The notes beneath the pieces are model-generated. The model had not been told where the DNA came from, searched no databases, and saw only the letters and a list, made by a program, of their open reading frames with translations. 64,000 nt of DNA, taken from Thauera humireducens. Lineage in GTDB: Bacteria; Pseudomonadota; Gammaproteobacteria; Burkholderiales; Rhodocyclaceae. The DNA is taken from positions 1,364,001 to 1,428,000 of the forward strand of contig NZ_CP014646.1 in the NCBI RefSeq assembly GCF_001051995.2, read 5' to 3'. Both the position numbers and the translations under genes were made by a program. Of the stretch, positions 3,113-26,776 are shown one piece after another; positions within the stretch are counted from its first letter, which is position 1, and the number at the start of each line of letters is the position of its first letter.

Positions 3113-3127
3113 CCAGCCCTACAGGGG
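3113..3127 (-). repeat. Copy 1 of the 15-nt intergenic motif CCAGCCCTACAGGGG
   Basis: Exact copy of a 15-mer also found at 18032, 22059 and 26762. Here it lies 7 nt past the stop codon of the coiled-coil gene and before the terminator. The core CCCT-AC-AGGG is a dyad. Function unknown. Confidence 0.85.
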
Positions 3128-3134
3128 GCGTGCG

Positions 3135-4973
3135 CTACACGGCAGTCTTCGGCGTCACCTCGCCGGCCACGTCGCCGCCGTAGCTGTAGCTGACGCTGTT
3201 GCTCGCCGACCCGCTGATGCTGGCGCTGGCGTTGACCATGCCGTAGGCGCTGGAGGTGAGCTGCGCATAGACCTGCGCGCCGACCTTGGCCGCATCGAGA
3301 CGCGCGTTGTTGGTCTGGAGCGCCACGTCGGCGTTGATCTTGGCCGTCTGAAGCATGAGCTGCTGGCTCGCCTCGTAGTCCTTGATCTGCGTCTCCCAGC
3401 GCATCGTGATCATCTTCGCTTCGGACTCGATCGCCGCAGCCTCGGCCTTGTAGCCGTCCAGCAGCGCGCCGCTCTGGATGCCCAGCGCCTTGATCCGCTC
3501 CCCTTCGGTCTGCACCTTGGCCTTGTAGCCGTCCCACTCCGCCGTCTTGGCCGACACCAGAGCGTTGTAGCGGGCGAGTTCGGCCTTCGCCTTCTCGGCC
3601 TGTGCGCCCACCTTGGCGCTGAAGGCATCGGCCTTGGTCTTGTACATGTCGACCAGCGTGCTTTGTGCCTGCACGCTCGCCTTGTACGCCTCGACCTTGG
3701 CCGTCTCGGCATTGACCTGCGCGACATAGGCGCGAACCTGCTCGCCGGCCGCGCTGATCTTGGTTTGCTCCAACTGCACCAGCGTCTGCGCCGCGCCGAC
3801 CTGCGCGCGGTAGATCTCGACCTGGGACATGCCGGCGTCGATCTGGGCCTTGAACTGCTGCACCAGCGACTCGTTGATCTGCGCCTTGGTCTGCTCGCCT
3901 TGGAGTTGGGCCTTATAGACCTCGACCTTGGCAAGTTCGGCCTTGATGAGCGTGTCGTAGCTCTGTGCATAGGTCTGGTAGCCGACCAGCAGCGCCTTGA
4001 ACTGCTCCACCGCAGCGTTGTGGCTCTGGATCGCGTTATCTGCGTAGGCACGGGCCGTCTCGAACGAGAGCTGCTCCAGCTTGAAAGCGTAGTCGATGAG
4101 CTGGCCTTCGAGCTGCATGCCAGCGGCGATTGTGTCCTTCAGGTTCGCCTGCTCCAGCTCGGCTTGCTTGATCGCTACGTCGCGGCTCAGTTCCGAGAGC
4201 TTGTCGTAGTAGTTCTGCTGGGCCTCGCGCAGTTGCGCGGCAATGACGCCGGACGGAAGCTGGAAGCCCAGCGCCTCAGAAGCTCGCTGAATCTCGGCCT
4301 CGTTCGCCAGCGCGATCTTCGTCTCACGGCTGCGCGCGCGGTCCCATATCGCTTGCTCGACAGCCTCGGGAATCCCAGTGCCACCGGACAGACGCGCTTC
4401 GAGCGTCGCCTTCAGCGCGTTCAACAAGGTCGACGCGTATTCCGACCCGCGGGCGTAACTGAACGGTGTCGGGCTCACCAGCGTGAGCGTCGGCATGTCC
4501 TCCAGTCGCGCGAGCCAGTCCTCATGCAGATCGACACCGGCAAAACTGACCGTCGACAGGCTCAAGTACGTTGGCTCGGCCGGCATCGTGACCACCGGGG
4601 CCGCCGGCACGGCGACATCCGCGGCAGACGGGACAGTCGGCACGGCGCCATAAGAGAGCGTCGGCGCAGTGGGTAGCGTCAGCGTCGGCGCCGTTTCGGT
4701 GAAGTCGTCGATCGTGATCCCCGGCATGTCGATCGACAGTTCGGTCGGCTGACCGCCAGGAACGGCGAAGCTGATCGTCGGCATCGACGGCGCGACCGGC
4801 ATGGACGGCAGGCTCGGCGCCGCGATGCTGTTCCACGTCATCGAGATCGTGGGCGGGCTGTAGATGCTCGAGTTGAGCGCCGCAGTGAAGCTCGACATGT
4901 TCGACTGCGACAGTTCGGCGTACCGGTACGCGCGATCAAACGCCTCGGAAACTTCGGTGCTAGGACCGGACAT
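3135..4973 (-). CDS. Long coiled-coil phage virion protein
   Basis: 612 residues when started at the second ATG (4973), which has GGAGGG 7 nt upstream; the first ATG (4979) overlaps the previous stop but is too close to that site. Residues 35-145 are Pro/Thr/Ser-rich with PTL/PTI repeats. About 190-560 is one long alpha-helical region rich in Ala, Gln, Lys and Glu, clearly coiled coil. The last 60 residues hold VGAQVYAQL followed by a Ser/Gly-rich tail. The shape suggests an elongated virion, tail-needle or injected protein. I recognise no named family. The VGAQVYAQL segment recurs in the 97-residue gene at 16530. Confidence 0.75.
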   Translation of the reverse strand: MSGPSTEVSEAFDRAYRYAELSQSNMSSFTAALNSSIYSPPTISMTWNSIAAPSLPSMPVAPSMPTISFAVPGGQPTELSIDMPGITIDDFTETAPTLTLPTAPTLSYGAVPTVPSAADVAVPAAPVVTMPAEPTYLSLSTVSFAGVDLHEDWLARLEDMPTLTLVSPTPFSYARGSEYASTLLNALKATLEARLSGGTGIPEAVEQAIWDRARSRETKIALANEAEIQRASEALGFQLPSGVIAAQLREAQQNYYDKLSELSRDVAIKQAELEQANLKDTIAAGMQLEGQLIDYAFKLEQLSFETARAYADNAIQSHNAAVEQFKALLVGYQTYAQSYDTLIKAELAKVEVYKAQLQGEQTKAQINESLVQQFKAQIDAGMSQVEIYRAQVGAAQTLVQLEQTKISAAGEQVRAYVAQVNAETAKVEAYKASVQAQSTLVDMYKTKADAFSAKVGAQAEKAKAELARYNALVSAKTAEWDGYKAKVQTEGERIKALGIQSGALLDGYKAEAAAIESEAKMITMRWETQIKDYEASQQLMLQTAKINADVALQTNNARLDAAKVGAQVYAQLTSSAYGMVNASASISGSASNSVSYSYGGDVAGEVTPKTAV

Positions 4974-4975
4974 GG

Positions 4976-5431
4976 TCATACCCTCCGCGTAGTGGACTGG
5001 GCGACTGCGACCTCAATCCGATCAAGTGTGAAAGCGTCGCCGGCCGGATTGCTGAAGCCGAACGTCAGGTAGTTCTCTCGGATGCCTTTTCCGGGCTGGG
5101 CGCGAGACTGGCCCGCTGCTCGCACCGGGAAGCCGTAGCGGTATTCCGCTTCGTCGCCCATTCGGTCGCGCGCCTTGACGATCAGCTCGCCCTCCCCCGC
5201 GCATTCGGGGATCGAAAAATAGACCATCTCGACACGCTTCTTCAGGCTGGAATCCCACAGCGTTTCGCCAGTCAGCACCTCAGAAACGATGGCGTCGCCA
5301 TTATCCGTTTCGCCGCCGAGCGTGTACAGCCCTGCGGCGTTCCCGGCGTGTGTCTCGGTAATCGAGTCGAACGGAAAGTCGGCGTATTCGGTGACTGCGC
5401 CGGTCAGCGTGTTCATTACGATCGTGTTCAT
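4976..5431 (-). CDS. Phage virion-associated hypothetical protein
   Basis: 151 residues from ATG 5431, which shares its A with the preceding stop (TGATG) and has CGGAGTG 6 nt upstream; a longer in-frame start at 5458 is less likely. The protein is mostly beta: acidic middle, aromatic C-terminus (YLTFGFSNPAGDAFTLDRIEVAV). Tail or fibre accessory by position, with no recognisable domain. Translation is coupled to both neighbours. Confidence 0.7.
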   Translation of the reverse strand: MNTIVMNTLTGAVTEYADFPFDSITETHAGNAAGLYTLGGETDNGDAIVSEVLTGETLWDSSLKKRVEMVYFSIPECAGEGELIVKARDRMGDEAEYRYGFPVRAAGQSRAQPGKGIRENYLTFGFSNPAGDAFTLDRIEVAVAQSTTRRV

Positions 5432-5634
5432 CAAAACACTCCGATTTTGAACAGCCACGGGTACGGCTGTTCGTTGATGTGCAGAATTTCATGCGCGTCT
5501 TGCTCGCCGACGCCGATGAGATGCGCGGCAGTCGCGTGCACTTCGCGCCGGGACACGTTGTGCTGCGAAAGGACGGCGCCGTAGTACGTCCGCACGCACC
5601 CTTCAGCCCCGCGATCTATGGTCAGGTCATCCAT
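5431..5634 (-). CDS. Small conserved-style phage protein
   Basis: 67 residues. Its ATG lies inside the last codons of the 552-residue gene (ATGGATGA overlap) and its stop overlaps the next start, so it is embedded in a translationally coupled run. It contains RTYYGAVLSQHNVSRREVHATAAHLIGVGEQDAHEILHI in mixed order: helical, with several His. No family recognised. The tight overlaps on both sides are the main evidence that it is real. Confidence 0.6.
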   Translation of the reverse strand: MDDLTIDRGAEGCVRTYYGAVLSQHNVSRREVHATAAHLIGVGEQDAHEILHINEQPYPWLFKIGVF

Positions 5635-7285
5635 ATCGCGCCACCACCTCTTCCGGCGTCAGTGTGAAAAAGCGGGTGATGGGGTCGCCGTAATCCCAAG
5701 GACTCGATGCTGTGACGGCCACACCGCCCCTACCGATTGTCACCAGGTTCGTGTTCAAGCTCGCCAGCGTCGTATCGTTGGCGGCAACAGAGTAGTTCCC
5801 GGCGGATAGCGTGCCCTCTTCTCTAGTCGTCTGAATGCGCGCTGGGTAAATGTCTTCGTACAAACAACATGCGTCGTATCGTGCATCGAAGTCCACAACC
5901 CAGCCGCTGGTGAATCCGCCAGTTCTCGGCTGCGCAAGTTCGGCGACATAGCTGGGCGTGCCGGGGTAGTACGTGTTGCTTGTGACGACGGTTGGGCCGG
6001 CCGCCTCATCTATGAACCCAATGGAGCACGGCTTTGGGATCGCAAAGCGAACATCTCCGGCGTCATTAACAACCTTTGCGTGGTGGAGGCTGCTGTCGGC
6101 CGGCCTAACCGCCAACACCCCCTCGTCATGCCCGAGGCTGTCGCTCTTGCGGAAGTCTGCAGCGATCAGGACGCTGGGGATTGGCGGCGTAATCTCACGC
6201 ACCGCGACGGTCAGGTCGTCGACAGCGTCGCCTAAAACCTCTACTTCATACGCCGCGACTCTGGAAGTTATGCGCGGCTCGTATGTCACCTCATAGCAGA
6301 TTGTTCGCGCCTTTCTCCCGTCCAGATTGAAGTACCAGCCGTGAAGGTTGACCCAAGTCTCTGCCGGTCTAAAGGAGCCGATCGTCGTCTTTGCGCCGGA
6401 GTCGAGCTCATAGACAAAGAAGTTGAACTGCCCGCCAGTGGACGTGAAAGTGGCCGAGCGCTGCGCCCCCACCAAGAGCTTCTTGCCCCCGACACGGGTA
6501 AAGGCGACACCATCGACATTCCCGCCGGAGATGGTCGCCAGAACGCCCCCGTTGTTGTAGATGTTCGCGCCGTTTCCTCTATTCAGAGATCGGCGCACGA
6601 ACCCAGCGCTCTTCGTCGTGTCGATGAAGTTCTGGCCGAAAACGCCTGACGTCCCGAACTGGAACCAGCGGTCGAAGAAAAACTCGATGGTGCCGGACAA
6701 CACGTAGAAATACGTGTAGTTGTAGGTCTTCGCCTCCCACGACAACACGTCCGTCTCAGGGTTTCTCCCCTGCCAGTCGACCGTGCCGTAGAGCAGATCG
6801 ACGCCCTTCTCGACCCTGTAGCGCGAAGTCGGCTTTTTCTCTTTCCAGTGCGGGCGCAGGGCGACCGAGGGGTCTTCGCCGTAGAGCGTGCCGAGCGGGC
6901 GGTTCTCCGGTGTGAAGGGCTTGCCCCACCAGCGCGCCGGCCCTTCGTACTCCCATGTTCCGCCGTCACCAACCCCGCTGGTGGGGCGGCAGATGAACCC
7001 GCCGAGCAGCTTCTCGCCGTCGACGCCTTTCGTCCAGACCTCGACGACATCCCGCCCCATGAACGACGTGCAACGCACCCGAGAGCCGTCAGCCAGGGTT
7101 GCCCGACGAACTTGGTAGTCGCCGACAGCGACGAGGCAGGCGTCTGTGAAGCGCTTGTAGATGTGGAAGACCTCGCCTCGCTGTTGCCCAGTCAGGTCCG
7201 GGCCGTAAACAAGCAGCTCAGGCGGAGTGCGCCCGGTGAGCGGCTCGCCGTTGAACCCGATCCAGTGTTGGTTCCTGAGTGTCAT
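5627..7285 (-). CDS. Phage tail-region protein, 552 aa
   Basis: 552 residues. The ATG at 7285 overlaps the previous TGA by four bases (ATGA). The sequence is beta-rich with many aromatic residues (WWGKPF, YNYTYFYVLSG, FFFDRWFQFG), as in tail, nozzle or receptor-binding structural proteins. A central stretch (about 250-330) reads like a jelly-roll or fibre domain. No catalytic motif is evident and I do not recognise the family. It lies between the nozzle candidate and small virion genes. Confidence 0.7.
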   Translation of the reverse strand: MTLRNQHWIGFNGEPLTGRTPPELLVYGPDLTGQQRGEVFHIYKRFTDACLVAVGDYQVRRATLADGSRVRCTSFMGRDVVEVWTKGVDGEKLLGGFICRPTSGVGDGGTWEYEGPARWWGKPFTPENRPLGTLYGEDPSVALRPHWKEKKPTSRYRVEKGVDLLYGTVDWQGRNPETDVLSWEAKTYNYTYFYVLSGTIEFFFDRWFQFGTSGVFGQNFIDTTKSAGFVRRSLNRGNGANIYNNGGVLATISGGNVDGVAFTRVGGKKLLVGAQRSATFTSTGGQFNFFVYELDSGAKTTIGSFRPAETWVNLHGWYFNLDGRKARTICYEVTYEPRITSRVAAYEVEVLGDAVDDLTVAVREITPPIPSVLIAADFRKSDSLGHDEGVLAVRPADSSLHHAKVVNDAGDVRFAIPKPCSIGFIDEAAGPTVVTSNTYYPGTPSYVAELAQPRTGGFTSGWVVDFDARYDACCLYEDIYPARIQTTREEGTLSAGNYSVAANDTTLASLNTNLVTIGRGGVAVTASSPWDYGDPITRFFTLTPEEVVARYG

Positions 7286-8445
7286 GCCGGGATCGCCATA
7301 TACTGCGGGATGCCTGCGCGCATACGGAAGCTCGCATGGACTTCCGTCACGGTGGTCTTGTAGCGCCCCTCGGTCATGCGGACCACGCCGCCACCGTTGA
7401 ATCCCGCCACGATGCCGCCGTCAGCGATGCACAGCGCCGCAGCGCCCATACCTGCACCCTCACCCTGCTTGACCAGCTCTGCGCGAACGGAGACGCCCGA
7501 GCCGAGCACGACCGGACCATTCACGACGCGGCGATAGACGAGGTTGTCGAAGCGGTCGCCGGCCAGGAACGCCAGCTCGCGCTCGGTGCCGACGTAGATG
7601 CCGTCATCGACCGGGATCACAGCGGTGATCGGATCGACGAGCTGCTTGAAGTCGCGGCGCACGTCGAACAGCTCGGCGGTGTTAGGCGAGGATGCGTAGA
7701 GCACGTTGCCGTCGGCGACTAGCGCGCGGTTCCGCCACGTCGTCAGGCACCGCCCAGCGGGAGCCGGCTGCATGAACTCGGTGCGGCACGGCAACACCAG
7801 ATCGTCGTTCTTGCCGGTGAAGCTGAAGAGCCCGTTCGTCGTGCTGCCGGCGTAGAACGCGCGCCCGCCGTCGTGCGAGGTCAGATAGACGTTGATCTTG
7901 TACCCAGCTTCGACCGGCAGGCCCGAGAGGAACACGCCGCCGTCTTCGACACGAACCGGGGCGCTGCTGTACGCCGGTCCACCTTCGAGCCCGTCCGCGA
8001 GCCGCACGTAGGTGATCTGCCACTGGTACTCGCCGGGGCACAAGTCCCCCGCGAGCTCGGTCAGCGCGCCAACGCTGGGCGGAATCGGAACCCCCCAGGT
8101 CGTCGCAGTCACGCCGTCCGTGAGGCCGCAGATCAGGTCGTTGCTCCACGCGACGCGTCCGTCAGGGAGTTGCGCGTACCAGACCCGGCTCGAGCCGAGG
8201 CCGGCGTACAGCACCACGCCCGCGTCGACGTTCTTCAGGTCGCCATCGCACGTCGCCAGCAGGAATCCGTCTGCTTGAAAGAGGTTCTTGTGGCACCCTT
8301 CTGCCGCGAGTGCGTAGCCTTCTCGGCGGCGCAGCTCGCCGGTCAGACCCGCGTCGACGTTCGTGGCGACGGTCAGCGCGTCGGGCGAAAGCCGCTCTTG
8401 CGGGAGCACGTTGTTGATCCCGGTGAAGCTCTTGAATGTCAGCAT
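7282..8445 (-). CDS. Podovirus tail protein, nozzle/stalk candidate
   Basis: 387 residues from ATG 8445, with AAGGATG upstream and a 7-nt overlap with the previous gene. The frame continues upstream to 8640 inside the other gene, but that part is antisense-like. The N-terminus FKSFTGINNVLPQERL, then NVDAGLTGELRRREGY, is a pattern seen in podovirus proteins with a beta-propeller-like fold that do the job of T7 gp12 (tail nozzle). Repeated short beta motifs (GIYVGTERELAFLAG, LVYRRVVNG) fit this. The nozzle role is inference from pattern and position. Confidence 0.7.
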   Translation of the reverse strand: MLTFKSFTGINNVLPQERLSPDALTVATNVDAGLTGELRRREGYALAAEGCHKNLFQADGFLLATCDGDLKNVDAGVVLYAGLGSSRVWYAQLPDGRVAWSNDLICGLTDGVTATTWGVPIPPSVGALTELAGDLCPGEYQWQITYVRLADGLEGGPAYSSAPVRVEDGGVFLSGLPVEAGYKINVYLTSHDGGRAFYAGSTTNGLFSFTGKNDDLVLPCRTEFMQPAPAGRCLTTWRNRALVADGNVLYASSPNTAELFDVRRDFKQLVDPITAVIPVDDGIYVGTERELAFLAGDRFDNLVYRRVVNGPVVLGSGVSVRAELVKQGEGAGMGAAALCIADGGIVAGFNGGGVVRMTEGRYKTTVTEVHASFRMRAGIPQYMAIPA

Positions 8446-9335
8446 GAAGGCATCCTTGTGAGTTGTCCGCGCCCGACGCCGGTAGCCGGTGGAATGTGCG
8501 GCGCGCGGTGCCCCTGCGAAAACACGGCCAACCCGACCCCGGTCGTGGGCGCTACGCCGGGAATGTTGTGCACGTTGAACCGTGCAGATCCTGCCCCCAC
8601 ACGGCCCGTCATCACGACGGACGGCGCCACGAATGCCCACCCGAGCGTGAGATACGCAGTCCCGAAGCGCGTCGGTCGATGAACGCCTGGGGCCATGAAG
8701 TGAAGCCCTGCGCGCGGCACACCGACGCCGGTCGTCGGCTCAACGGCTGGCGCGGAGAACCTTGAGGCGAGCCGCGCCAGCCCGAGTCCGACCGAAGCGA
8801 TCGAGCCCACGCCGACAGCGAAGTGTGTTGCACGAGCCGACGCAGTGCCAACGCCACCGGTCGGCGCAACGCCTTGTGCGACTCCGGCCAGTGGAAGGTC
8901 GGCCGTCGCGGCGCCGACGTCGCCAGACTTGAACCCCGGTGCGTAGGTAAAGAGGTTGCGCAACCCGAGCATAGTTCGGATCGAGTACGCAAGGCCGACA
9001 CGGGCTTCGCACACTCCGGGCGCATCGCCGACGATCGGACGCGTGCGATCCCCGAGGCCGACCCCGCCGCTTCGGACGCCAAGCGCCCGGAAGTAGTAGC
9101 GCACCTCGCCCAGCCCGACCCCGCCCTCTGGCGCGACGCCGGGGGCCACCTCGATGGTTGCTCGTGTGCCGATACCAACGCCGCCTGTCGGGGCGACGCC
9201 AGGGGCATCACGGGGGATCGTTCCACCAGCGTCATACCACGTAGCTGAAGCCGCCGCCGCCGATGGGCGCGCGTACGCTGGTTCAGTGAACCAAGACGCC
9301 GACGCAGCCGAAGCGGATGGGCGGACGTAGCTCAT
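8439..9335 (-). CDS. Phage protein built from about 12 tandem 20-aa repeats
   Basis: 298 residues. After an N-terminal pair of Ala/Ser-rich units (ARPSAAAASATW type, common in phage tail proteins), residues 42-295 are about twelve degenerate units of the form APGVAPTGGVGxGxAR followed by five to eight variable, often aromatic residues. Regular GVG turns suggest a beta-solenoid or fibrous shaft. Codon choice varies between units, so the repeats look old and not recently expanded. Its ATG overlaps the stop of the propeller gene (ATGA). Fibre or spike shaft by inference. Confidence 0.7.
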   Translation of the reverse strand: MSYVRPSASAASASWFTEPAYARPSAAAASATWYDAGGTIPRDAPGVAPTGGVGIGTRATIEVAPGVAPEGGVGLGEVRYYFRALGVRSGGVGLGDRTRPIVGDAPGVCEARVGLAYSIRTMLGLRNLFTYAPGFKSGDVGAATADLPLAGVAQGVAPTGGVGTASARATHFAVGVGSIASVGLGLARLASRFSAPAVEPTTGVGVPRAGLHFMAPGVHRPTRFGTAYLTLGWAFVAPSVVMTGRVGAGSARFNVHNIPGVAPTTGVGLAVFSQGHRAPHIPPATGVGRGQLTRMPSC

Positions 9336-10507
9336 GCTGGGATGACCCTCTGAATCAGGTCATTGCGCAGGGGTGACTCCGACGGGTACAGGTACGTGAC
9401 CTGCACCTCCTGCTGGCTGGCAAACGGCCCAAGCGAGAAACTGCCGTCAGCGGCGGTCGTTGTCGCCCCAAGCAGCTCTCCGGTCCGCCGCAGGTACGCC
9501 CGAACGTCGGTCACGATCGGGTTGTTGTTCTGGTCAGTGACGGGGTCCGCCGCCGTGGTTCCGATGTACTTCTCAGACAGGCTGGCCGGGGCCTCGTCCA
9601 TGATGTAGAGCGCGACGGTGACGGGTTGTACCCACGCGCGTGTCCACGACCCGACCTGATATTCGTTGAGATATCCGCCCTGATTGCACGCCCACAACTT
9701 CGTGCCGTCTGCGCTTGGCACGATGCTGTAGACGAGGCCGGTCCCGCCAGCGATCAGCAGCGTGCGCGTCAACCCGACGAGGTCGTAGGCGTAGATCGCC
9801 TGCGATCCAGAGGAGCCGACGTAGAACCTATTTCCGTCCGGGCTGTATGCACAGCACTGCGCTGCCGCCACTGGGCCGCCTCCAGGCGTCGAGGACACGG
9901 TGGTCCAATCCGCGATGTTGTACACCCACACGTAGGGCAGCGCAGCGGTGCCGGTGATCGCCACTTTCGTGCCGTCAGGATGCACGGCACATCCAGTCCC
10001 GTTGCCACCGAGCGACGGAGTGCCCGACATCTGCGTCCAGTCGCTCGTGTTGTACCCGTAGAACCCCGGCGAATTCTGGCAGGCGACGAAGAGCTTGCTC
10101 CCATCCGGCGTGAAGGCGATGGCGTTCACGGTCCCCGACGGATTCGCGCTGAGTCCGGTGATTTTCGTCCATCCAGTCGTCTCGTAGATCGTCAGGAACG
10201 GCGCCGTGTTGTGGCCGACTGCGAGATACGCGCCGTCAGGGCTGAACTTGCAGCAGACGCCGGTCCCCGCAGGGTTCCCGCCCGAGATCGTGATCGGGCT
10301 GAAGGAGGCTGCGTCGTAGACGACGAGGTACGGACTGCTCGAGCACACATAGGCGATCTTCGTCCCGTCTGGACTCACCGATACCCCGCGCCCGTTCGTT
10401 GGCACTGTCGCGGTGAACTTTGCGGAATCCAAGCACCGCGTCAGTCCGACATAGGCGGCCAGGGGCGGATTCGCGGCGCCCGTAACCGGGACAAAAAGCA
10501 GAGACAC
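9332..10507 (-). CDS. Seven-bladed beta-propeller (YVTN/WD40-like) tail protein
   Basis: 391 residues. About seven units of 40-45 residues carry the pattern SPDGTKIAYVCS..PYLVVYD, FSPDGAYLAVGH..FLTIYE, FTPDGSKLFVACQ..FYGYN, HPDGTKVAITG..YVWVYN, YSPDGNRFYVGS..AIYAYD and PSADGTKLWACN..YLNEY, the classic YVTN/WD40-like signature. About residues 300-391 form a separate domain with RAYLRRTGELLGATTTAADGSFSLG, a carboxypeptidase-regulatory-like beta sandwich. Propellers in phage tails are usually for receptor or glycan recognition; here that is inference. It lies among other fibre-like genes and starts 9 nt after its upstream neighbour. Confidence 0.8.
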   Translation of the reverse strand: MSLLFVPVTGAANPPLAAYVGLTRCLDSAKFTATVPTNGRGVSVSPDGTKIAYVCSSSPYLVVYDAASFSPITISGGNPAGTGVCCKFSPDGAYLAVGHNTAPFLTIYETTGWTKITGLSANPSGTVNAIAFTPDGSKLFVACQNSPGFYGYNTSDWTQMSGTPSLGGNGTGCAVHPDGTKVAITGTAALPYVWVYNIADWTTVSSTPGGGPVAAAQCCAYSPDGNRFYVGSSGSQAIYAYDLVGLTRTLLIAGGTGLVYSIVPSADGTKLWACNQGGYLNEYQVGSWTRAWVQPVTVALYIMDEAPASLSEKYIGTTAADPVTDQNNNPIVTDVRAYLRRTGELLGATTTAADGSFSLGPFASQQEVQVTYLYPSESPLRNDLIQRVIPA

Positions 10508-10516
10508 GATTGCGCC

Positions 10517-10921
10517 TCAGAACGCGAAGATCTTGAACGCGCCGTTGTCCCAGTTCACGGTCACGTCGGAGCCGTTCGTCGTGAAAGGAAAGCCAGATAC
10601 GTCGCCGTTGAAGTGCAGCAGGATAGATGTCGCCGGATTCCCGGTGTCCACGTAGGTCACGACGCCCAGTGCGGTGTCGCCCGCTGCAACGGCGCTCCAC
10701 GTCACGTCCGCAGCATCGAACGCGCCGCCTGCGACCGACTTCGAAGTCAGGGTGATGTCTTCATCCAGCACATGCGCTGCGATCGTGCTGTAGAACTCAT
10801 CGGTCGTGGCGTTCGGTGTATAGGTGTTTGCCACAAGTGCAGTCTTGATCGTGTCGCCGACAAGATCGACCTGCTTGGTCATGATCTTCTCTTTCGCTTT
10901 GGTGTAGACGAATCGTGCCAT
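10517..10921 (-). CDS. Small phage fibre/virion protein (paralogue of the gene at 15487)
   Basis: 134 residues from ATG 10921 with CGGAGA upstream. The start aligns with the other copy: xxFVxxxAxxxxx(13)DTxKxxLxT. The family, a short beta-sandwich protein starting with FV(F/Y) and followed by DTIKxALV, is widespread beside phage tail genes. Two members in one phage, with the tail-fibre block between them, suggest duplication. Preceded by a 42-nt AT-rich gap, the largest in this block, which may hold a promoter. Confidence 0.75.
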   Translation of the reverse strand: MARFVYTKAKEKIMTKQVDLVGDTIKTALVANTYTPNATTDEFYSTIAAHVLDEDITLTSKSVAGGAFDAADVTWSAVAAGDTALGVVTYVDTGNPATSILLHFNGDVSGFPFTTNGSDVTVNWDNGAFKIFAF

Positions 10922-10963
10922 GGTATTTCTCCGTTATTTCCGTGAGTTATTTGAAGTGTACAC

Positions 10964-12271
10964 CTACTGCACTCTCGTGAATATGCGAGGCTCTTGGGTG
11001 CGGGCGAATGTGCTGTCTGACGACACGCGAACGAACGGCGCCTGCTCCCCCGTGCGCACGAACACTGAGCGCCGCAGCAGGTCCGAAACCTCTGCCGGGA
11101 TGACGACCTCTGCCCTGCCGGGGAAGAAGCTCGTCGAGCACTCGAACAGCGCGCCGCTGGCGACCTCGTTGCGCACTGCTGAAGCAGCGCCTGTGATGAG
11201 TTCCGCGCTGACGCTTAACGTAGCTCCCGGCCCGGTCGATGCGCTGCCGCCGAACGCCTCGCCTGCGATGAAGGTCGCGGTGGTCTGAAGCGACGCGGCA
11301 GAGGCGTCGGCGCTGACGAACGCGCTGCCGGGGATAAGCTCGATGCTGGTTGAGGTCAGCGTTCCTGGAGCGACGGCAGCGAATCCGCCCGACGCAGTGC
11401 CAGCGATTAACTCGATGCTCGCAGAGACTGCGGCGCCAGCGACGGTGGCGTTTTGCACACCTGTCGCCGCGCCCGCGACAAAGCTCGTTGCTGTATCAAC
11501 CACAACGCCCGCTGCCGTCGAGGCGGACGTGCCCTGTGCCGTTCCTGCGGTAAAGACCGTCTGCGTGGCGACGGAGGCGGCTGTGGCGACGCCTTGGCCC
11601 GAGGCCAGTCCAGTGACGATCGAGGCGGTGACTTCGAGCGTCGCGCCTGATGCGGTTGCGCTGATCTGACCCGTTGCTGCGCCCGCAACGAACGCTGCTG
11701 CTGTGTCGAGTGTCGCGCCGTTTGCCGTGCTGGCAGCTTCGCCGCTGGCTGTGCCCGGAGAGATGGATGCACTCGTGGCTACAGATGCGCTTGGCGCCGT
11801 TGCGTTGGCTTGACCCGTTGCAGAGCCTGCGACGAACGACGCGGTTGTTGCGAGAGTGACGGACGGGGATGTTGCGTTGATCTGGCCGGATGCGGAGCCG
11901 GGGGTGAAAGAGGCGCCCGTCTCAAAGGTGGCGGACGGGGCGACAACATCTTCGCCACCAACCGTGATCGTGACCGGCTGGGGCGTGCCGACTGCGACGC
12001 CGTCGAGGTAGAGCTGCGCCTCGAAAGTTGAGCCAGGGCCGTCGTAATCGAACGAAGTATCCTCGAAAACGAAGAGCGTCCCAGCGGTCGGCCAGGTCGT
12101 GACGAGCACGCGGACCTCTTTGCCGGCGTCCTCCGGCCCAAGCCACGTCGCAGCGATCCCGCCGCCATGCTCGACCGTGGACGGCACCGACTCTGCGAGC
12201 ACGCCCAGTCCAGGGACACCGACAACGACGGCCCCGGAGATCAGCGAAGAGGAATCGACGCGGATGCTCAT
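10964..12271 (-). CDS. Phage protein with about twelve 24-aa Ala/Thr/Gly repeats
   Basis: 435 residues. Residues 1-110 look like an Ig-like or beta-sandwich head (WLGPEDAGKEVRVLVTTW, QLYLDGVAVGTPQPVTITVG). About 115-390 are twelve units of 23-24 residues of the form TASFVAGSATGQANATA..ASVA, which should fold as a beta-solenoid or similar shaft. The last 45 residues are charged (RRSVFVRTGEQAPFVRV). It ends 43 nt before the next gene and overlaps the upstream stop by ATGA. Function inferred as tail-fibre shaft. Confidence 0.7.
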   Translation of the reverse strand: MSIRVDSSSLISGAVVVGVPGLGVLAESVPSTVEHGGGIAATWLGPEDAGKEVRVLVTTWPTAGTLFVFEDTSFDYDGPGSTFEAQLYLDGVAVGTPQPVTITVGGEDVVAPSATFETGASFTPGSASGQINATSPSVTLATTASFVAGSATGQANATAPSASVATSASISPGTASGEAASTANGATLDTAAAFVAGAATGQISATASGATLEVTASIVTGLASGQGVATAASVATQTVFTAGTAQGTSASTAAGVVVDTATSFVAGAATGVQNATVAGAAVSASIELIAGTASGGFAAVAPGTLTSTSIELIPGSAFVSADASAASLQTTATFIAGEAFGGSASTGPGATLSVSAELITGAASAVRNEVASGALFECSTSFFPGRAEVVIPAEVSDLLRRSVFVRTGEQAPFVRVSSDSTFARTQEPRIFTRVQ

Positions 12272-13788: not shown

Positions 13789-13790
13789 TC

Positions 13791-15483: not shown

Positions 15484-15486
15484 GGC

Positions 15487-15909: not shown

Positions 15910-15913
15910 GTGA

Positions 15914-16528: not shown

Positions 16529-16529
16529 G

Positions 16530-16823: not shown

Positions 16824-16971
16824 TTCTCGGCTCCCGGTGCGGCGTTTTCCAGCGACAGTTCTCGACCATCGGCTTGTTCTTGAGGCATCGGTGCGACCAG
16901 TCAGGAAAGAGGTACTGGCTCTGCCGCTCCGCACACTTACGGCAGCACATCGGAAGGTCGCTCGGGGTCAT
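16807..16971 (-). CDS. Short Cys-rich (zinc-finger-like) protein, 54 aa
   Basis: 54 residues. ATG 16971 overlaps the stop of the endolysin gene by four bases (ATGA), the usual coupling in this operon. The sequence has CCRKC near residue 9 and a His-Arg-Cys around residue 27, a possible zinc knuckle. The upstream in-frame extension is antisense-like and rejected. No family recognised; lysis-cassette accessory or small regulator. The evidence is the coupling and the Cys pattern only. Confidence 0.5.
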   Translation of the reverse strand: MTPSDLPMCCRKCAERQSQYLFPDWSHRCLKNKPMVENCRWKTPHREPRNESPL

Positions 16972-17974: not shown

Positions 17975-18031
17975 GCCGGCTCGTGTCTGCTCAATATTTG
18001 CGTAGAGGATTGCGTTCCGAGCCGTTCTGCT

Positions 18032-18046
18032 CCAGCCCTACAGGGG
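18032..18046 (-). repeat. Copy 2 of the 15-nt intergenic motif, with a partial tandem copy
   Basis: CCAGCCCTACAGGGG, followed at 18049-18058 by a second AGCCCTACAG that runs into the stop codon of the adaptor gene. It lies between adaptor and holin genes, 58 nt before the holin start, with no terminator between. Confidence 0.85.
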
Positions 18047-18051
18047 GAGCC

Positions 18052-18717: not shown

Positions 18718-18718
18718 G

Positions 18719-19105
18719 TCAGCGCGCTCCGAACTGCTCGATCAGGCTCACGACCTCGCCGCGCAGCTTCTCGACGCCGCGGCGTTTGTCCAGATTGACC
18801 TCGTACTTCATCGCGTAGGCTTCGAGCGCGTCCTTGTCCATCGTCTCGATGAGCATCAGCATGCCTTCGGTTTCGCGGTGCTCGTCCTGCTCACGCTGAT
18901 TCTGTGCAGCGACAATGGCCTCCACGTCGCCCGGCTGATCTGCGGCTTCTGTTTCATCGCCGCGCTTGAACTCGGCAAAGCGCAGCAAGGTCTTGGCCTC
19001 ACGCTCGGGCACGCGCTTCACGTCGCCCGGATTCCACTCTGTCCGCAATGCGGTGCGATCGCGGTAGAACTTCTGGCCTTCGTACTTCACAACGATCAGT
19101 TTCAT
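18719..19105 (-). CDS. Small head-region protein, 128 aa
   Basis: 128 residues from ATG 19105 with TGAGGA upstream; the long in-frame extension upstream is Arg-rich shadow. The N-terminus KLIVVKYEGQKFYRDR is a small beta element; residues 35-128 are mostly charged helix (EREAKTLLRFAEFKRGDETEAADQPGDV..AQNQREQDEH). Probably a head-completion or accessory protein. It starts right behind a strong terminator. Confidence 0.65.
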   Translation of the reverse strand: MKLIVVKYEGQKFYRDRTALRTEWNPGDVKRVPEREAKTLLRFAEFKRGDETEAADQPGDVEAIVAAQNQREQDEHRETEGMLMLIETMDKDALEAYAMKYEVNLDKRRGVEKLRGEVVSLIEQFGAR

Positions 19106-19119
19106 GGTGTCCTCATGTG

Positions 19120-19151
19120 AAAAAGGCCGGCCAGGGCGAACCCGGCCGGCC
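19120..19151 (-). terminator. Rho-independent terminator with UUCG loop
   Basis: Arms GGCCGGCC at 19125-19132 and 19144-19151, extended inward by GGG/CCC, close a UUCG tetraloop on the minus-strand RNA. Five T follow (19120-19124). It lies after the head/decoration gene and 14 nt before the next start codon. Confidence 0.9.
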
Positions 19152-19164
19152 CGTTTCGTGCCGC

Positions 19165-19647
19165 TTAGGCCACGCCTTCGTTGATGGCGAAGACGATGAT
19201 CTCCACCTCGGACGCCTTGGCGTTGGCAGCGCCGCCGGTCGTCAGCGTCAGCCAGGCTTCTTTCGGCAGGACGACACTGGGATTGGCGGTGACGTTGCGC
19301 AGACGCGCGGCTGCCGACATGACGACGCCCGTACCGAACAGATCGTCGTCTTGCGGGACGGCGGTCACGTCGACGCCATCGGCGTAGGCGAAGCCCAGCT
19401 TGGCGGTCACGGATGCGCTCATCGCGGTCTTGATGACGATCTCGCTGTCGATCAGGCGAAAGCCTGCGGGCAGAACACCTACCTTTACGACATCGCCGGA
19501 GGCGACCGCAGAGGCCGAGTCGCCGCCGATCACTGCGCCGGTTGCGTTGGTGGTCAGCAGGAAGCGGAAGGCCGTGAGGTTCCCGTAGGGCGTGGAGCCG
19601 AGGCGGTTGCTCGGATCTTGCATGCCCAGCTTGGTGATGGTTGCCAT
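19165..19647 (-). CDS. Phage head/decoration protein
   Basis: 160 residues immediately downstream of the major capsid gene. Beta-rich with Ala/Thr/Val (FRFLLTTNATGAVIGGDSAS, EIVIKTAMSASVTAKLGFAYADG, SEVEIIVFAINEG). Small beta proteins in this place are usually decoration or cement proteins, or the conserved head proteins of N4-gp56-type phages. Position and composition support this; the exact family is not recognised. Confidence 0.7.
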   Translation of the reverse strand: MATITKLGMQDPSNRLGSTPYGNLTAFRFLLTTNATGAVIGGDSASAVASGDVVKVGVLPAGFRLIDSEIVIKTAMSASVTAKLGFAYADGVDVTAVPQDDDLFGTGVVMSAAARLRNVTANPSVVLPKEAWLTLTTGGAANAKASEVEIIVFAINEGVA

Positions 19648-19709
19648 GGTTCAAATCTCCTTGGTGGCGACCGCCCTCTCAGACGGCCGCCGATTACTCA
19701 GGGCTGGCG

Positions 19710-21005
19710 TTACTTGCGAGCGCCGATGATGGAAACGGCGGTGTCGATGGCGACGACGCCGTGGTCGGTGAAGTGCTTTTCGCCGTTGCCCTGATCGACC
19801 AGCCAGCGAACCTTGCTGATGCCCTGGATAGCGCCGATCAACAGCTCCATCTTGTCGTCGTGGTCAAACTCCTTCTCCTTCCAGAAGAAGGGCATGCCAC
19901 CGTGGCCGGATGCGGCAAACGCCTGGGCGATGGCTTGGCCGCCCAGCAGGATCGCGCGATCGACCGCGTGAGTCGTTCCGAAGCTGGCATTGACCGTGGC
20001 GGTCGATTCCGTCTCGCTGGTAAAGCTGGCGCAGTAGTTCAGCGCGTCGCCTGCGTAGAAGCGGATCGGCTTGGGCATCTTCATCAGCAGGACGCCGTTC
20101 CACAGCCCGCACTCGCCCAAGAACAGCGGGTGTTGCTTCGCCTTCGCAGCGCGCGCCAGGGCGTTGGCCTGGAACTGGCGGAAGTTCGGGTCTTGCGCGA
20201 AGGCGTGGTACTGAGCCGGAGAAACCAGCAGCACACGCAGCGGCGAGTCCTCGGCAACGACGTCGCCGGGGATCTTCACGGCCGGCGGCGGCAGCGCGAT
20301 CGATTCCATCACGGTGCGGATCGCATCGACCACATCCATGTTGAGCACGTCGGTCGTCGCCAGATCAACGACGCCACCCGTCTGCGAGAACTCGGCGATG
20401 CCGTTGGTGCCGTCAGCGATGAAGTGGCGATTCTTCGTCGGGGCGCGCACCGAATTGATTGCGATCTCGGCGAACTCGGGGTGCGATGCGACCGGCACCC
20501 GCCACTCGATGTTGTCGTGGAAGCCACGCGCACCAGCCATATGCAGCAGCAGCGACTGGTCCATGTAGCTGTCCATCAGCGACTGCGCAACCGGACGGCC
20601 CATGCGGCGGAAGTCCACCGGCGAGCGCAGGCTGGTCATGGTGTCGCCGAGATCCACCGGGAAGCGGGCCTGATTCACACGGACACGCGAAGTGTCGTAA
20701 CTCAGGCCAGTGCCCTTACCCTCGGCTGTGCGGCTGCCCATGATCGGGTAGGCGCCGACAGGTTGCAGGAACTGGAACTCGACCTCGTCGCCCTTGCCGC
20801 GGGACAGATCGACGGTCTTGACGATCGGCAGGTCGGTAGAGGTCTGCTTGCGCACGACTTCGCCGGCTCGCGCCTCGCCTTTGGGCATGGGGCCGGACAG
20901 GCGACCCATGGTGGAGTTGCGTTGCATCGACTGGGCGAAGAGGCCCGCGGCGAGAACGCGCTGCTTATCCGCGGCGGTGGCCGGGACGTTGGTCTTGGTG
21001 GTCAT
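19710..21005 (-). CDS. Major capsid protein, N4 gp56 family (HK97-fold)
   Basis: 431 residues from ATG 21005 (AGGAGT upstream; a TTG six bases earlier is less likely). Key patterns: QRNSTMGRLSGPMPKGEA, KGDEVEFQFLQPVG, DLGDTMTSLRSPVDFRRMGRPVAQSLMDSYMD (in parts) and WNGVLLMKMPKPIRFYAGD. These match the N4 gp56/DUF4043 family of major capsid proteins used by many podoviruses. It assembles the icosahedral shell around the scaffold encoded directly upstream. Gene order terS-terL-portal-gp49-scaffold-capsid is standard. Confidence 0.85.
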   Translation of the reverse strand: MTTKTNVPATAADKQRVLAAGLFAQSMQRNSTMGRLSGPMPKGEARAGEVVRKQTSTDLPIVKTVDLSRGKGDEVEFQFLQPVGAYPIMGSRTAEGKGTGLSYDTSRVRVNQARFPVDLGDTMTSLRSPVDFRRMGRPVAQSLMDSYMDQSLLLHMAGARGFHDNIEWRVPVASHPEFAEIAINSVRAPTKNRHFIADGTNGIAEFSQTGGVVDLATTDVLNMDVVDAIRTVMESIALPPPAVKIPGDVVAEDSPLRVLLVSPAQYHAFAQDPNFRQFQANALARAAKAKQHPLFLGECGLWNGVLLMKMPKPIRFYAGDALNYCASFTSETESTATVNASFGTTHAVDRAILLGGQAIAQAFAASGHGGMPFFWKEKEFDHDDKMELLIGAIQGISKVRWLVDQGNGEKHFTDHGVVAIDTAVSIIGARK

Positions 21006-21025
21006 GTTCAATGACTCCTATGCGT

Positions 21026-21994
21026 TCAAATGAGGTTGTCCAGCAGGTCGTCGATGCGGTCCGATGACATGGAGCCCATGCGTTCGAGCAAGGCGGCTGC
21101 ATTTCCAGCTGCGGCGAGGGTCTGCTGCGTTTCGTCCATCGGCGCCGCTCCAGGCACATCGGACAGGGAGTTGGGCACGCGAAGGGCGGGCGCCTCCGGC
21201 GCGGTGCGTGCGGTACTGGGCTGCTGCGGCTTGGTTGCGCGGAATGCGTTGAAGACCTCGATCACGTCTTGCGCGGCGCCCTTGGTCAGCGCGTGCTCGA
21301 CGCCGGCCTTGGCGAATGCAGGCAGGCCGTTACGCCATGCCGCGAACTCGGCCGACTCGACAAGCTCGTCAGCGTCCGGGTGGGCGCCGTAGATCGCGTC
21401 GTAGTGGGCGTCGGATGCCGTCTTGGCTTCCTTCGCCTTGATCGGGGCCAGCCTGTCATCGAGCGCGGCCATCAGCCGTGACTCAACTTGGGCCATGGCG
21501 CGGCGATTCAACTCGGCCACGCCTTTCGCAAGATCCTCTTCCGAGAAGTCGCCGAAGACAGAGATGTCGACGCCTTCGGCCATCGCCTGCGTAGCGGCAG
21601 CGAGGTTCGCATCTGCTGCGGTCTGCCCTTGACCGGCGGCTGCGCGGTCTTGTGCATCGGCCTGGGCGGCTGCGAGGTTTTGCTGCTGGCGGGCGGTCAG
21701 TTCCGCCACTTGCTGCTCAAGCTGTGCGACGCGGTCCAGCGCGGCCTTGCGACCTTCGCGGGCCTCGGCCAGCTTTTCGTAGGGGATGGTGTAGGCGCCG
21801 GACTTGCTCAGGATCGGTGCGCCCTCGACTTCCGTCTCGGTAGCGCCGGCCTGCGGCGGGTCTTGGCGTTCGGTAGAGGCGGCAGCGGGCGCGTCGTCGG
21901 TTTCGGTGACTTGCGGCTGCTCGGTGGGTGCGTCATCATCCTGAAGCGTCCCGTCCAGGGCGGCCTCGAGGAGTTCGGCGGCGGTCATGCTCAT
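21026..21994 (-). CDS. Capsid scaffolding protein
   Basis: 322 residues, very acidic and Ala/Gln-rich. The first 60 residues are disordered (DDDAPTEQPQVTETDD). About 75-120 is a coiled coil (EGRKAALDRVAQLEQQVAELTARQQQ in parts). The C-terminus ends ALLERMGSMSSDRIDDLLDNLI, a helical capsid-binding-type tail. Composition and position before the capsid gene are typical of scaffolds, which are removed from the mature head. No protease is seen next to it. Confidence 0.8.
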   Translation of the reverse strand: MSMTAAELLEAALDGTLQDDDAPTEQPQVTETDDAPAAASTERQDPPQAGATETEVEGAPILSKSGAYTIPYEKLAEAREGRKAALDRVAQLEQQVAELTARQQQNLAAAQADAQDRAAAGQGQTAADANLAAATQAMAEGVDISVFGDFSEEDLAKGVAELNRRAMAQVESRLMAALDDRLAPIKAKEAKTASDAHYDAIYGAHPDADELVESAEFAAWRNGLPAFAKAGVEHALTKGAAQDVIEVFNAFRATKPQQPSTARTAPEAPALRVPNSLSDVPGAAPMDETQQTLAAAGNAAALLERMGSMSSDRIDDLLDNLI

Positions 21995-22058
21995 TTGCGC
22001 TTATCCAAGCTGCGGGCAACATTGCGCGGGCAGTTTGGTTGGGCGAATGCACAAGGCT

Positions 22059-22073
22059 CCAGCCCTACAGGGG
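22059..22073 (-). repeat. Copy 3 of the 15-nt intergenic motif
   Basis: CCAGCCCTACAGGGG, 65 nt before the scaffold start codon and downstream (in transcription) of the terminator at 22128. This copy is far from any stop codon, unlike the other three. A GGGCG(A/G)ATGCAC direct repeat flanks it (22041 and 22083). Confidence 0.85.
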
Positions 22074-22127
22074 GTAAGGATTGGGCGGATGCACTACTGG
22101 CGGGAAAGCGGCGGGAAATGCGGGCGC

Positions 22128-22151
22128 AAAAAAGCCCGCGCTCGGCGGGCT
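22128..22151 (-). terminator. Rho-independent terminator
   Basis: Stem AGCCCGC/GCGGGCT (22133-22139 and 22145-22151) with a 5-nt loop and six T on the minus strand. It separates the portal/Gp49 genes from the scaffold-capsid genes. Confidence 0.9.
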
Positions 22152-22191
22152 CGTAGGGGTGGCGCGGCTGCGCCTGTGCTTGGCGCCTCGG

Positions 22192-22557
22192 CTATGCCTG
22201 GCCGGCGAGGCGCTCTTTCAGCGCGTAGACCATCAGCGGCCATGCCTTGGTGATGGCATCCTTGCGGGCTTCATTGCGCCCCGTCTCTGCATCAAATCTC
22301 TCAGCGTCGGCACAGTACGATTCGCCGGGCACGGTGAAGCCGTTACGGAGCACGAGGACGCAGAATGTCAGAAGCTGCAGCGTGCCCCAATCCGGCGACT
22401 TGCCGATTTCGTGCACGCAGCCTTCTACCGCTTCAACGGCCTGCGATGCGGTGAAGTAGTGCTCCCCGACGATGTTCGCCTCGATGTCCGCGGGCGTCAC
22501 GCGCGGCGCGGTCAACCCTTTGGCTTGAATTTCCTGCTCGATGGTGTGGTCGTTCAT
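22192..22557 (-). CDS. N4 Gp49/Sf6 Gp66-family protein, copy A
   Basis: 121 residues. The N-terminus NDHTIEQEIQAKGLTAPRVT, then PADIEANIVGEHYF, is the signature of the N4 Gp49/Sf6 Gp66 family, small phage proteins of unknown function. ATGA overlap with the portal stop. The C-terminus has RFDAETGRNEARKDAITKAWPLMVYALKERL in parts. A second member, with LEQAIQSKGLTAPRIT, is encoded on the other arm at 42194. An internal duplication of this family within one prophage is unusual. Confidence 0.8.
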   Translation of the reverse strand: MNDHTIEQEIQAKGLTAPRVTPADIEANIVGEHYFTASQAVEAVEGCVHEIGKSPDWGTLQLLTFCVLVLRNGFTVPGESYCADAERFDAETGRNEARKDAITKAWPLMVYALKERLAGQA

Positions 22558-24821: not shown

Positions 24822-26096
24822 TCAGGTGCGCCAGTCGGGCGGCGGGGGTTCTTCGTAGTTCTGTTCCATCGAGGCCGGCATCACCGGAACGGCTTGGCCG
24901 ATGTAGCGGAACATGTCGCTGCCGTGGCTGAACTCGTCGTGCAGCGGCCCCATGGGTTCGCCAGTCTGCGTGTGCAGCGCGCGGCGGTAGCGCTTCAGGC
25001 ACTCCAGCAGCCGGCTGGTCTTGTCTTGGTCGAAATAGCACCGTGGGAACAGCATGCGGGCGACCTTGATGCCTTCCTCGACGCTTGTCTGTGCCAGAAC
25101 GATCGGCTTACGCCCCATTTCTCGCAGAAGATCCTCGGTGCTCTTTCCCGTCTGGAAATTGCGCGTGCGGCCATCGTGCGGCAGATAGTCGTGACCCCAG
25201 CGATACGGGCGGCGCTCGATCTGCGCCACATACCAGTCGAGCGTGCGGTGCGAGTCCTCGATGTAGTCGATGATCCGGACGTCCATTGGCGAGCGCTGCA
25301 CGAAGCCGATGGTCATGGCGTCGTTCCACCCCAAGTCCCACACGGTGTGCACCGGCAGCAGCGGGTCGTAGGGCACGCGCGCGACGCGGTTCTCGGCGTA
25401 GAGCGCTTGGATCTCGTGGCGATAGATCGCACCTTCGGCTACGGTGCGCGGTTTGCCTTCCCAGATGTGCTCGTAATCCTCCAGCAGCATCGAGCGCTTG
25501 GCCTTCAACCGCTCCTGGTTCAGCACTTCCGGGAACCACGGATTGTCGCGCCAGTTGATCTCGCAAACCCAGGTGTCGGGCGACGGCGTTGCGATGAATC
25601 GCTGGTACGTCTCGTCGGTGTCCATGTCCGGGTTGAGCGTCAGCCATATCTCCGATCCGTCCTTGCGGATGGTCGGGATGAGCACGTCCCATGACTTCTT
25701 GCTGACGCCGTGGGCCTCCTCGACCCACACAACGTCCACGCCCTCGAATGACTTGATCGAATCGACGGTGTGCGACTGCAGGCCGGAGAACAGGAACATC
25801 GAGCCGTTGGCGCCGCGGATCTCGGTATCGAGCACCTCGTAGAAGTCCTGAAGACCAAGGCGCACGATCGTGTCCTTCAGCAGGCGATGCACCGAGTCGC
25901 GCATCGACTTCTGAACCTCGCGCGCACACAGGATGCGAAGCGGCCTGTCTGCGGCAAGCACCAGCAGCGCGGCAGCGACAGCCCACGATTTCCCGCCACC
26001 ACGGCCGCCGTGCATCACCTTGTAGCGGCGTGGCGTGAAAAGCCCTTCCAGCTTCTCGGTGATCTGCAGCTTTGCTATTGGCGGCTCGGCGAGCAT
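24822..26096 (-). CDS. terL: Terminase large subunit
   Basis: 424 residues from ATG 26096 (TGATG overlap with terS). The ATPase domain has Walker A HGGRGGGKS at about 29-37 and Walker B DVVWVEEAH near 118. The RNase H-like nuclease domain carries VWDLGWNDAMTIGF near 245, with acidic residues further on (HDEFSHGSDMFRY). PBSX/phage-terminase-3 type. It powers DNA packaging and makes the genome cuts, docking on the portal encoded next. Confidence 0.93.
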   Translation of the reverse strand: MLAEPPIAKLQITEKLEGLFTPRRYKVMHGGRGGGKSWAVAAALLVLAADRPLRILCAREVQKSMRDSVHRLLKDTIVRLGLQDFYEVLDTEIRGANGSMFLFSGLQSHTVDSIKSFEGVDVVWVEEAHGVSKKSWDVLIPTIRKDGSEIWLTLNPDMDTDETYQRFIATPSPDTWVCEINWRDNPWFPEVLNQERLKAKRSMLLEDYEHIWEGKPRTVAEGAIYRHEIQALYAENRVARVPYDPLLPVHTVWDLGWNDAMTIGFVQRSPMDVRIIDYIEDSHRTLDWYVAQIERRPYRWGHDYLPHDGRTRNFQTGKSTEDLLREMGRKPIVLAQTSVEEGIKVARMLFPRCYFDQDKTSRLLECLKRYRRALHTQTGEPMGPLHDEFSHGSDMFRYIGQAVPVMPASMEQNYEEPPPPDWRT

Positions 26097-26737
26097 CACG
26101 ACTCGTCATCCTCGCTTCGAGCGGGCGGGCGCACGAACTCAACGGCAATGCGGGCCTTGATCGGCCCTCCTCCCTCGCCGACGTGCTCCTGCGTGACCTT
26201 GTCGCCAAAGCGGCGGGGCTTGAGTTTGCCCATAAGCCACTTCTTGTTGTCGGCCTCCAAGCGCACGATCGCTGCCGACGCCTTATCGACGGTCATCAGC
26301 GGCCTGCCGTCGACCACGATGGGCATCCCGGTATCTGGATCGAGGACAGGCACCCACGCCTTGTTGTGAAGTTCGGCCAGCTCTTCGGCCATGAACTCAG
26401 CCTGGGCCTCCTTCGCGCGCGCGTACTGGTCGCAGATCGGGTTGGCGCCGTTCTCGTCTTTCTCATTCAGCCAGCGTGCGACAGTTGCATAATCGGGAAG
26501 CGGGTGGCCTTGGTGCCCGGCGGCCAGAATGGTGGTGATGCTCTTCGAGCTTGATGCGATCGCATTGCACACCGCATCCATGACTTTCTCGCGGTTCCAT
26601 TCCTTGCTGTTGATCTTGAACGGGTTGGCCGGTGCTTTTGCTGCAGCCTTGCGCGCAGCGGTGCCGGCGACTCGCTTCCTCGCGGCCGGCTTCTTCGGAT
26701 CGGTGGACGTGGCGGTCTTACGAGTCATGCGCGGCAT
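26096..26737 (-). CDS. terS: Terminase small subunit
   Basis: 213 residues. A long basic N-terminus (Lys/Arg/Ala-rich, residues 1-35) precedes WNREKVMDAVCNAIASSSKSITTILAAG and PLPDYATVARWLNEKDENG, the helix-turn-helix of Sf6/terminase-small-like proteins; residues 105-180 are coiled-coil oligomerisation helices. It recognises the packaging site, which for such phages is often inside or near this gene. The copy of the 15-nt motif lies 25 nt before its start. Confidence 0.85.
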   Translation of the reverse strand: MPRMTRKTATSTDPKKPAARKRVAGTAARKAAAKAPANPFKINSKEWNREKVMDAVCNAIASSSKSITTILAAGHQGHPLPDYATVARWLNEKDENGANPICDQYARAKEAQAEFMAEELAELHNKAWVPVLDPDTGMPIVVDGRPLMTVDKASAAIVRLEADNKKWLMGKLKPRRFGDKVTQEHVGEGGGPIKARIAVEFVRPPARSEDDES

Positions 26738-26761
26738 GCTCGCCAGCAGCCACGCGTCAAT

Positions 26762-26776
26762 CCAGCCCTACAGGGG
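26762..26776 (-). repeat. Copy 4 of the 15-nt intergenic motif
   Basis: CCAGCCCTACAGGGG, one base after the stop of the winged-helix regulator and 25 nt before the terS start codon. Confidence 0.85.

Follow-up and report, generated by a model that had tools for sequence, protein, structure and literature searches.

In P2 the late activator of several promoters in a temperate phage, Ogr/Delta, is a zinc-finger protein with the site TGT-N12-ACA near -55; Q-type antiterminators serve a single late promoter, with the Q site located between the -35 and -10 elements. The Lpa protein of phage P1 is connected with 11 late promoters, each with a 9-bp inverted repeat, and lpa is listed beside pacA and pacB (PMC10695390); the C protein of phage Mu is a dimeric activator of four late promoters (lys, I, P and mom), with its site at or upstream of a non-consensus -35 (PMC4461284); and gp6 of GIL01 activates a late promoter while bound over the -35 at -43.5, a position called class II (PMC6182141). 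The present study concerns a 15-nt motif repeated four times in a prophage of Thauera humireducens, within a stretch of 64,000 nucleotides (contig NZ_CP014646.1, positions 1,364,001 to 1,428,000), referred to below as the window. Judging from the sequence, the motif likely serves as the site at which a late activator encoded by the phage binds, placed at about -41.5 of four promoters of the sigma-70 type, and the best candidate for this activator is the winged-helix protein whose gene lies directly upstream of that of the terminase (Table 1).

All four exact copies listed by the original prediction, made from the sequence of the window, were found, in the same orientation and in gaps between likely genes, and 100 dinucleotide-preserving shuffles contained no match. 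The working form of the motif is CCCCTGTAGGGCTGG, because the genes run on the (-) strand. Read on that strand, copies 1, 2 and 4 lie 7, 5 and 1 nt after a stop codon, and copy 3 is downstream of a hairpin with a T-run (folding energy -19.9 kcal/mol, z only -1.07), as had been described. The assignment of a functional block to each copy was also correct: the cis element stands ahead of late operons at 4/4 window sites (terminase, scaffold-like/capsid, endolysin and FADGG blocks), the scaffold and the holin being named by position. Allowing up to three mismatches added three places in the window, each with three mismatches (1.59 matches expected), and a position weight matrix (PWM) scan of the window found no sites beyond the four.

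The whole genome (4,171,754 bases) contains eight exact copies of the 15-mer, four in this prophage and four in a second, related prophage, where the order of the sites is the same. The 13-mer CCCCTGTARGGYT was found in 14 of 300 genomes of the order, including the genome under study; the latter has eight copies, all in prophages, and the 13 others have a single copy each. The motif is thus not scattered through host DNA. Given this confinement to two prophages and the conservation in relatives described below, neither of the two possible grounds for rejection that the original prediction had itself put forward was borne out. The distribution of the motif, both genome-wide and order-wide, also rules out a host regulatory word, and a chance origin is ruled out by the shuffles, the genome survey, the fixed spacing to a -10 element and the absence of the candidate activator from records with chance matches. 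The second prophage is also F116-like (G000:C1:1137883-1163385) and carries, besides its four sites in matching order, the gene of the activator.

The sequence beyond the motif was compared in 88 sites, and the only strong column signals were A at offset 22 (71/88) and T at offset 26 (65/88), with A or C favoured between them, which corresponds to a host-type, sigma-70-like -10 element (xAnnnT). An A...T pair starting at offsets 21-23 is present in 87 of the 88 sites, the control mean being 7.1. The 88-site set included 14 sites from loci chosen by eye, and the spacing test was therefore rerun with the activator loci only and the bare 10-mer; the -10 element again kept its distance at 69 of the 71 non-redundant sites from relatives (control 6.3). 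All eight sites of both Thauera prophages, including the four in the window, fit this spacing. If the A is taken as -11, the 10-bp dyad CCCT-GT-AGGG (CCCTGTAGGG) is centred at -41.5, or at -42.5 where the spacing is longer by one base; the fixed distance thus puts the dyad in the position of a class II activator. In the predicted late promoters the -10 is poor and a conserved -35 of its own is lacking, and CCCCTGTAGGGCTGG resembles the upstream half of such a promoter. A scan of positions 2600-22400 for standard promoters, a stretch that excludes copy 4, gave two hits, none at copies 1-3, which is no more than shuffles give (mean 2.3).

Two of the functions that had been offered for the motif, the dimeric regulator and the late promoter element, have support, and both seem to describe a single activator site, located at about -41.5 of late promoters of the sigma-70 type. 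No support was gained for RNA processing, antitermination, packaging or methylation, because the motif is located upstream of the predicted start, also precedes blocks other than packaging genes and keeps a fixed distance to the -10.

The motif is conserved among related phages. The exact 15-mer was also found in phages 8P and USP_18, and the latter has six coding-strand sites with at most two mismatches, four of them exact, which precede terS, the scaffold-like gene, a csrA homologue, gene 26, the FADGG homologue and the holin gene. Phages F116, Shewanella Y11 and Acidovorax AP1 contain variants such as CCCCTGTARGGTTCG or ACCCTGTAGGGTTCG. A search with an alignment of the winged-helix protein yielded 97 loci (at least 80 viral contigs and 17 named genomes), of which 96 were scanned, L040 being excluded from the counts. 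Among the matches listed, the core with T13 was found 144 times downstream of the activator gene on the coding strand and twice upstream; none was on the opposite strand and none in the reversed controls. The 161 sites classified (146 from activator loci and 15 from the six phages) are followed mostly by terS or the scaffold-like gene, and by lysis genes, csrA or the FADGG gene where the stretch reaches them; 19 have no recognised gene after them.

Among the matches listed, 18 of the 96 loci had no exact core-plus-T match. In L078, L098 and L156 the site is just past the fetched stretch, assuming that the numbered contig is identical, and in L159 the whole-record matches were not placeable relative to the gene. 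The stretches of L084, L094, L103 and L137 extend just 502 to 3428 nt downstream. L079, L110, L111 and L134 have the variant CCCCTATARGG, in which the dyad is a perfect palindrome if position 9 is G, and L154 and L163 have weak variants of the motif. Close relatives of the activator were found in a Thauera group of loci (L147, L148, L150 and L151), and the phage of L150 is arranged differently: a diverged site (CCGGTGTAGGGCTGG) is located directly after the activator gene and before a FADGG gene. In the same locus a FADGG-like protein of Pseudothauera (L150:10459-12579) includes a 33-residue segment 94% identical to the window TerS, apparently a piece of terS transferred into another gene.

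The gene of the candidate activator is located between those of RusA and terS. Of 45 records with promoter-type sites, 35 encode the protein; of 30 with chance 15-mers, none does. It is the only non-virion protein of the window that matched all six related phages in the 50-56 kb read of each, and a protein model detected it in both Thauera prophages (E 4.7e-75 each). Its family is phrog_8117, for which 529 homologues were retrieved, and loci encoding it were found in beta- and gammaproteobacteria, among them Thauera, Variovorax, Pseudomonas and Acinetobacter. The evidence for the winged-helix fold covers mainly residues 6-73 of 167, and a sequence search against PDB returned nothing below E 0.14.

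Homologues in phages D14I and D14S are annotated as AbiEi antitoxin, and some homologues carry PF13338 as a precomputed domain. The protein shares with AbiEi antitoxins an N-terminal winged helix and a weak match to Pfam AbiEi_4 (21.7 bits), but this score is under the gathering score of 25, and the gene is flanked by those of RusA and terS instead of an AbiEii toxin gene; PADLOC and NCBIfam scans were empty. On these grounds an AbiE (type IV) toxin-antitoxin system was ruled out. In five loci (L110, L134, L143, Shewanella Y11 and Pseudoalteromonas Y7) the recognition helix reads DDN instead of DDR, and the coding-strand sites seen there have A at motif position 9. This covariation is only suggestive, since the DDN loci are probably one clade and some DDR loci likewise have A at this position.

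The start of transcription predicted from the promoter layout can be compared with the starts of the genes. Among 35 sites with a terS match starting no more than 330 nt away, ten are non-redundant, and in nine of these a script found the in-frame terS ATG at the predicted start (offset 33-35); the tenth is the window phage, where inspection found the same. Its ATG at 26728 is at offset 34, the predicted +1/+2, and another in-frame ATG, at 26737 (offset 25), coincides in part with the -10. A is enriched at offset 34 in the whole set (42/88 sites), to which the terS ATGs contribute. In two loci (L101:707-830 and L144:10465-10588) the motif precedes a tRNA-Met gene whose first base is at offset 33, the predicted +1. 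The three marks, the terS ATG, the first base of tRNA-Met and the rise of A at offset 34, agree on the predicted start. As the start codon of terS coincides with it, the terminase mRNA is predicted to be leaderless. In F116 (L059, region 7581-7656) an in-frame ATG coincides with the predicted start of transcription, and the annotated start of terS lies 75 nt further downstream.

Folding around the -10 differs between classes of sites. Compared with mononucleotide shuffles, the ten terS sites are more stable (mean z -2.55), the 24 scaffold-like sites are no more stable (mean z -0.11), and the six FADGG sites have a mean z of -3.55 due to three strong stems. The -10 core is in a predicted loop at 8/10 terS, 9/24 scaffold-like, 3/5 lysis, 26/39 unclassified and 2/6 FADGG sites, the window terS site being one of the two terS exceptions. 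Location in a loop is not distinctive by itself, because it is common at other classes too, and only the fold stability stands out; these counts rule out hairpins as a general feature of the sites. Downstream of copy 1, too, there is a terminator-like hairpin: the read-through RNA folds at -33 kcal/mol (z -5.65), and the RNA from the predicted start at -0.5. A terminator scan of 2600-22400 did not list the hairpins at copies 1 and 3, which folding reveals. The folding results suggest that read-through messages may be ended or silenced and that messages from the late promoter may escape. A tentative extension, which we consider possible but doubtful, is that the terminase and FADGG promoters are nested in hairpins, so that timing would be enforced at two levels, through starts that depend on the activator and through the silencing of read-through messages, with terminase mRNA leaderless across the group. 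In the read-through RNA the hairpin would end transcription before the FADGG gene and close the start codon of terS; RNA started at the promoter would lack the 5' arm, and the terS RNA would begin at the AUG.

The motif, its distribution, its fixed spacing to the -10 and its co-occurrence with the protein are features of the DNA itself; from them we infer the binding, the dimer, the activation, the transcription starts and the timing. Upon induction, the early leftward operon would produce the winged-helix protein, which would bind the dyad, probably as a dimer, and work on the host RNA polymerase as a class II activator. The terminase/portal, scaffold/capsid and lysis blocks, with the tail genes behind the last, and the FADGG gene would then be switched on jointly.

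A number of observations weigh against this reading. No ATG is present at the predicted start of L143, where the terS match lies 642 nt on; Pseudoalteromonas Y7, one of the six related phages, has weak sites only; and the site search found none in the activator loci L072, L147, L148 and L149, the genomes of L147 and L148 having no exact CCCCTGTARGGNT. A dyad of 10 bp is short for a classical helix-turn-helix dimer. In 10 of the 45 promoter-type records the protein was not detected; eight of them are under 43 kb and may be fragments, which is less clear for G017 and G019 (55 kb). The protein model also matches five other genomes of the order, two of them clearly (G181 and G221) and three weakly, and the exact 13-mer is absent from all five. 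The protein was picked as the only shared non-virion protein resembling a DNA-binding one, in six phages read in part, and co-occurrence alone cannot separate it from other core phage genes. The records with sites and no detected homologue, L147 and L148 with the protein and no exact site, and the five genomes all speak for a late promoter element bound by another factor, a host activator or another phage protein, and the motif and the -10 are statistically firm whichever protein binds. It is nevertheless unlikely that another factor is involved. A host activator would be expected to have sites in host genes, but only 13 of 299 other genomes have the 13-mer, in one copy, and the genome under study has none outside the prophages; any other binder has to be set against the single non-virion protein shared with the six phages in the parts read and against its absence from the chance-match records.

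A site for antitermination or RNA processing that acts in the transcript (put-, nut- or Q-like) is favoured by the terminator-like hairpins that follow copy 1 and precede copy 3, and by the activator gene, which is in the place of lambda Q. The fixed -10, however, puts the motif upstream of the start, so that its own promoter would not transcribe it, the copy 1 hairpin is lost in RNA begun at the predicted +1, and there are several sites per phage; an Rfam search of window positions 1-48000 found no family, which counts against a structured RNA. It seems that such a site is very improbable. Even less can be said for a promoter of a phage-encoded RNA polymerase or phage sigma factor: the upstream word is long, exact and repeated, but the downstream element is a host-type -10 (A -11, T -7) at a spacing that varies by one base, and the window proteins scanned, a part of all open reading frames, included no polymerase or sigma family. 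A packaging, recombination or methylation site, or a spreading repeat, is the least credible of all; one copy adjoins terS, but the single orientation, the presence of one copy per late block, the retention in divergent relatives and the fixed -10 spacing do not fit it.

The prophage groups with the F116-like podoviruses (relatives of Hollowayvirus), its portal and capsid proteins being 56% and 60% identical to those of F116, the classic generalised transducing phage. It encodes a RecT-like protein, a CI-like repressor, RusA, terminase, portal, capsid and endolysin. The features discussed are collected in Table 1.

Table 1. Predicted late promoters, associated genes and the candidate activator (window positions, except for the last row, which gives genome positions)
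Feature	Position	Strand	Basis or remark
Motif 4 (CCCCTGTAGGGCTGG), predicted terminase/portal late promoter	26762..26776	(-)	Exact match, -10 spacing, PWM
-10-like hexamer GAGCAT, promoter 4	26736..26741	(-)	A and T at offsets 22/26
terS	26096..26728	(-)	Pfam Sf6_terminase
Motif 3, predicted scaffold-like/capsid late promoter	22059..22073	(-)	Exact match, -10 spacing, PWM
-10-like hexamer CAAACT, promoter 3	22032..22037	(-)	Spacing +1
Scaffold-like gene, followed by capsid	21026-21994		Scaffold by position; phrog_479 (function not annotated)
Motif 2, predicted lysis late promoter, judged by position to serve later genes as well	18032..18046	(-)	Match, spacing, PWM
-10-like hexamer AATCCT, promoter 2	18006..18011	(-)	
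Small gene, followed by endolysin	17681-17974		Holin by position only
Motif 1, predicted FADGG late promoter	3113..3127	(-)	Exact match, -10 spacing, PWM
-10-like hexamer GAGTAT, promoter 1	3087..3092	(-)	Within terminator-like hairpin
Hairpin and T-run region around promoter 1	3058..3112	(-)	RNA folding
FADGG gene (name from the original prediction)	783-3050		phrog_11341, no assigned function
Candidate late activator, winged-helix, 167 residues	26778..27281	(-)	phrog_8117
15-mer copies of the second prophage	1137883, 1152156, 1156186, 1162884		Site order same as in the window prophage

Among the matches listed, literature searches with the motif letters and with late regulators gave no account of this late-gene switch, though older F116 papers may hold one. 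The one phage paper among the listed matches to the motif letters concerned an attachment site (PMC9434293), the words 'promoter' and 'motif' do not occur in the main text on phiC725A (PMC5217972), and the paper on YA3 deals with a different phage, one with a Q protein (PMC7326022). The results propose a likely function for the unannotated family phrog_8117, and with the motif, late operons and gene starts can be predicted in relatives that lack annotation. The system also offers a testable case of a leaderless late mRNA, and two annotations would be corrected, the AbiEi-antitoxin name and the start of F116 terS.

Compared with the described systems, the locus differs from P2 Ogr/Delta in its 10-bp dyad at -41.5 and its predicted winged helix, and from the Q type in having four promoter sites with a motif that ends about 20 nt upstream of the -10. 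The repeat of P1 lies at about -22 from the start, compared with -41.5 here, and Mu C differs in both its motif and the type of phage. The attributes of a late-activator regulon of the Lpa, Mu C and Ogr kind, namely the element, its fixed distance to the -10 and a co-occurring DNA-binding-like protein, were all found, L147, L148, G181 and G221 being exceptions to the co-occurrence. GIL01 gp6 is likewise a phage activator of a late promoter in a class II position, but it serves one late promoter (P3), is a LexA homologue and belongs to a Bacillus thuringiensis phage (PMC6182141). Mu C resembles the present system in having four late promoters under one activator (PMC4461284), a likeness of layout. 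With P1 Lpa, whose repeat is 9 bp against the 10-bp dyad here, the comparison is also one of promoter layout, and the common plan is one phage activator for many late promoters with a short inverted repeat (PMC10695390).

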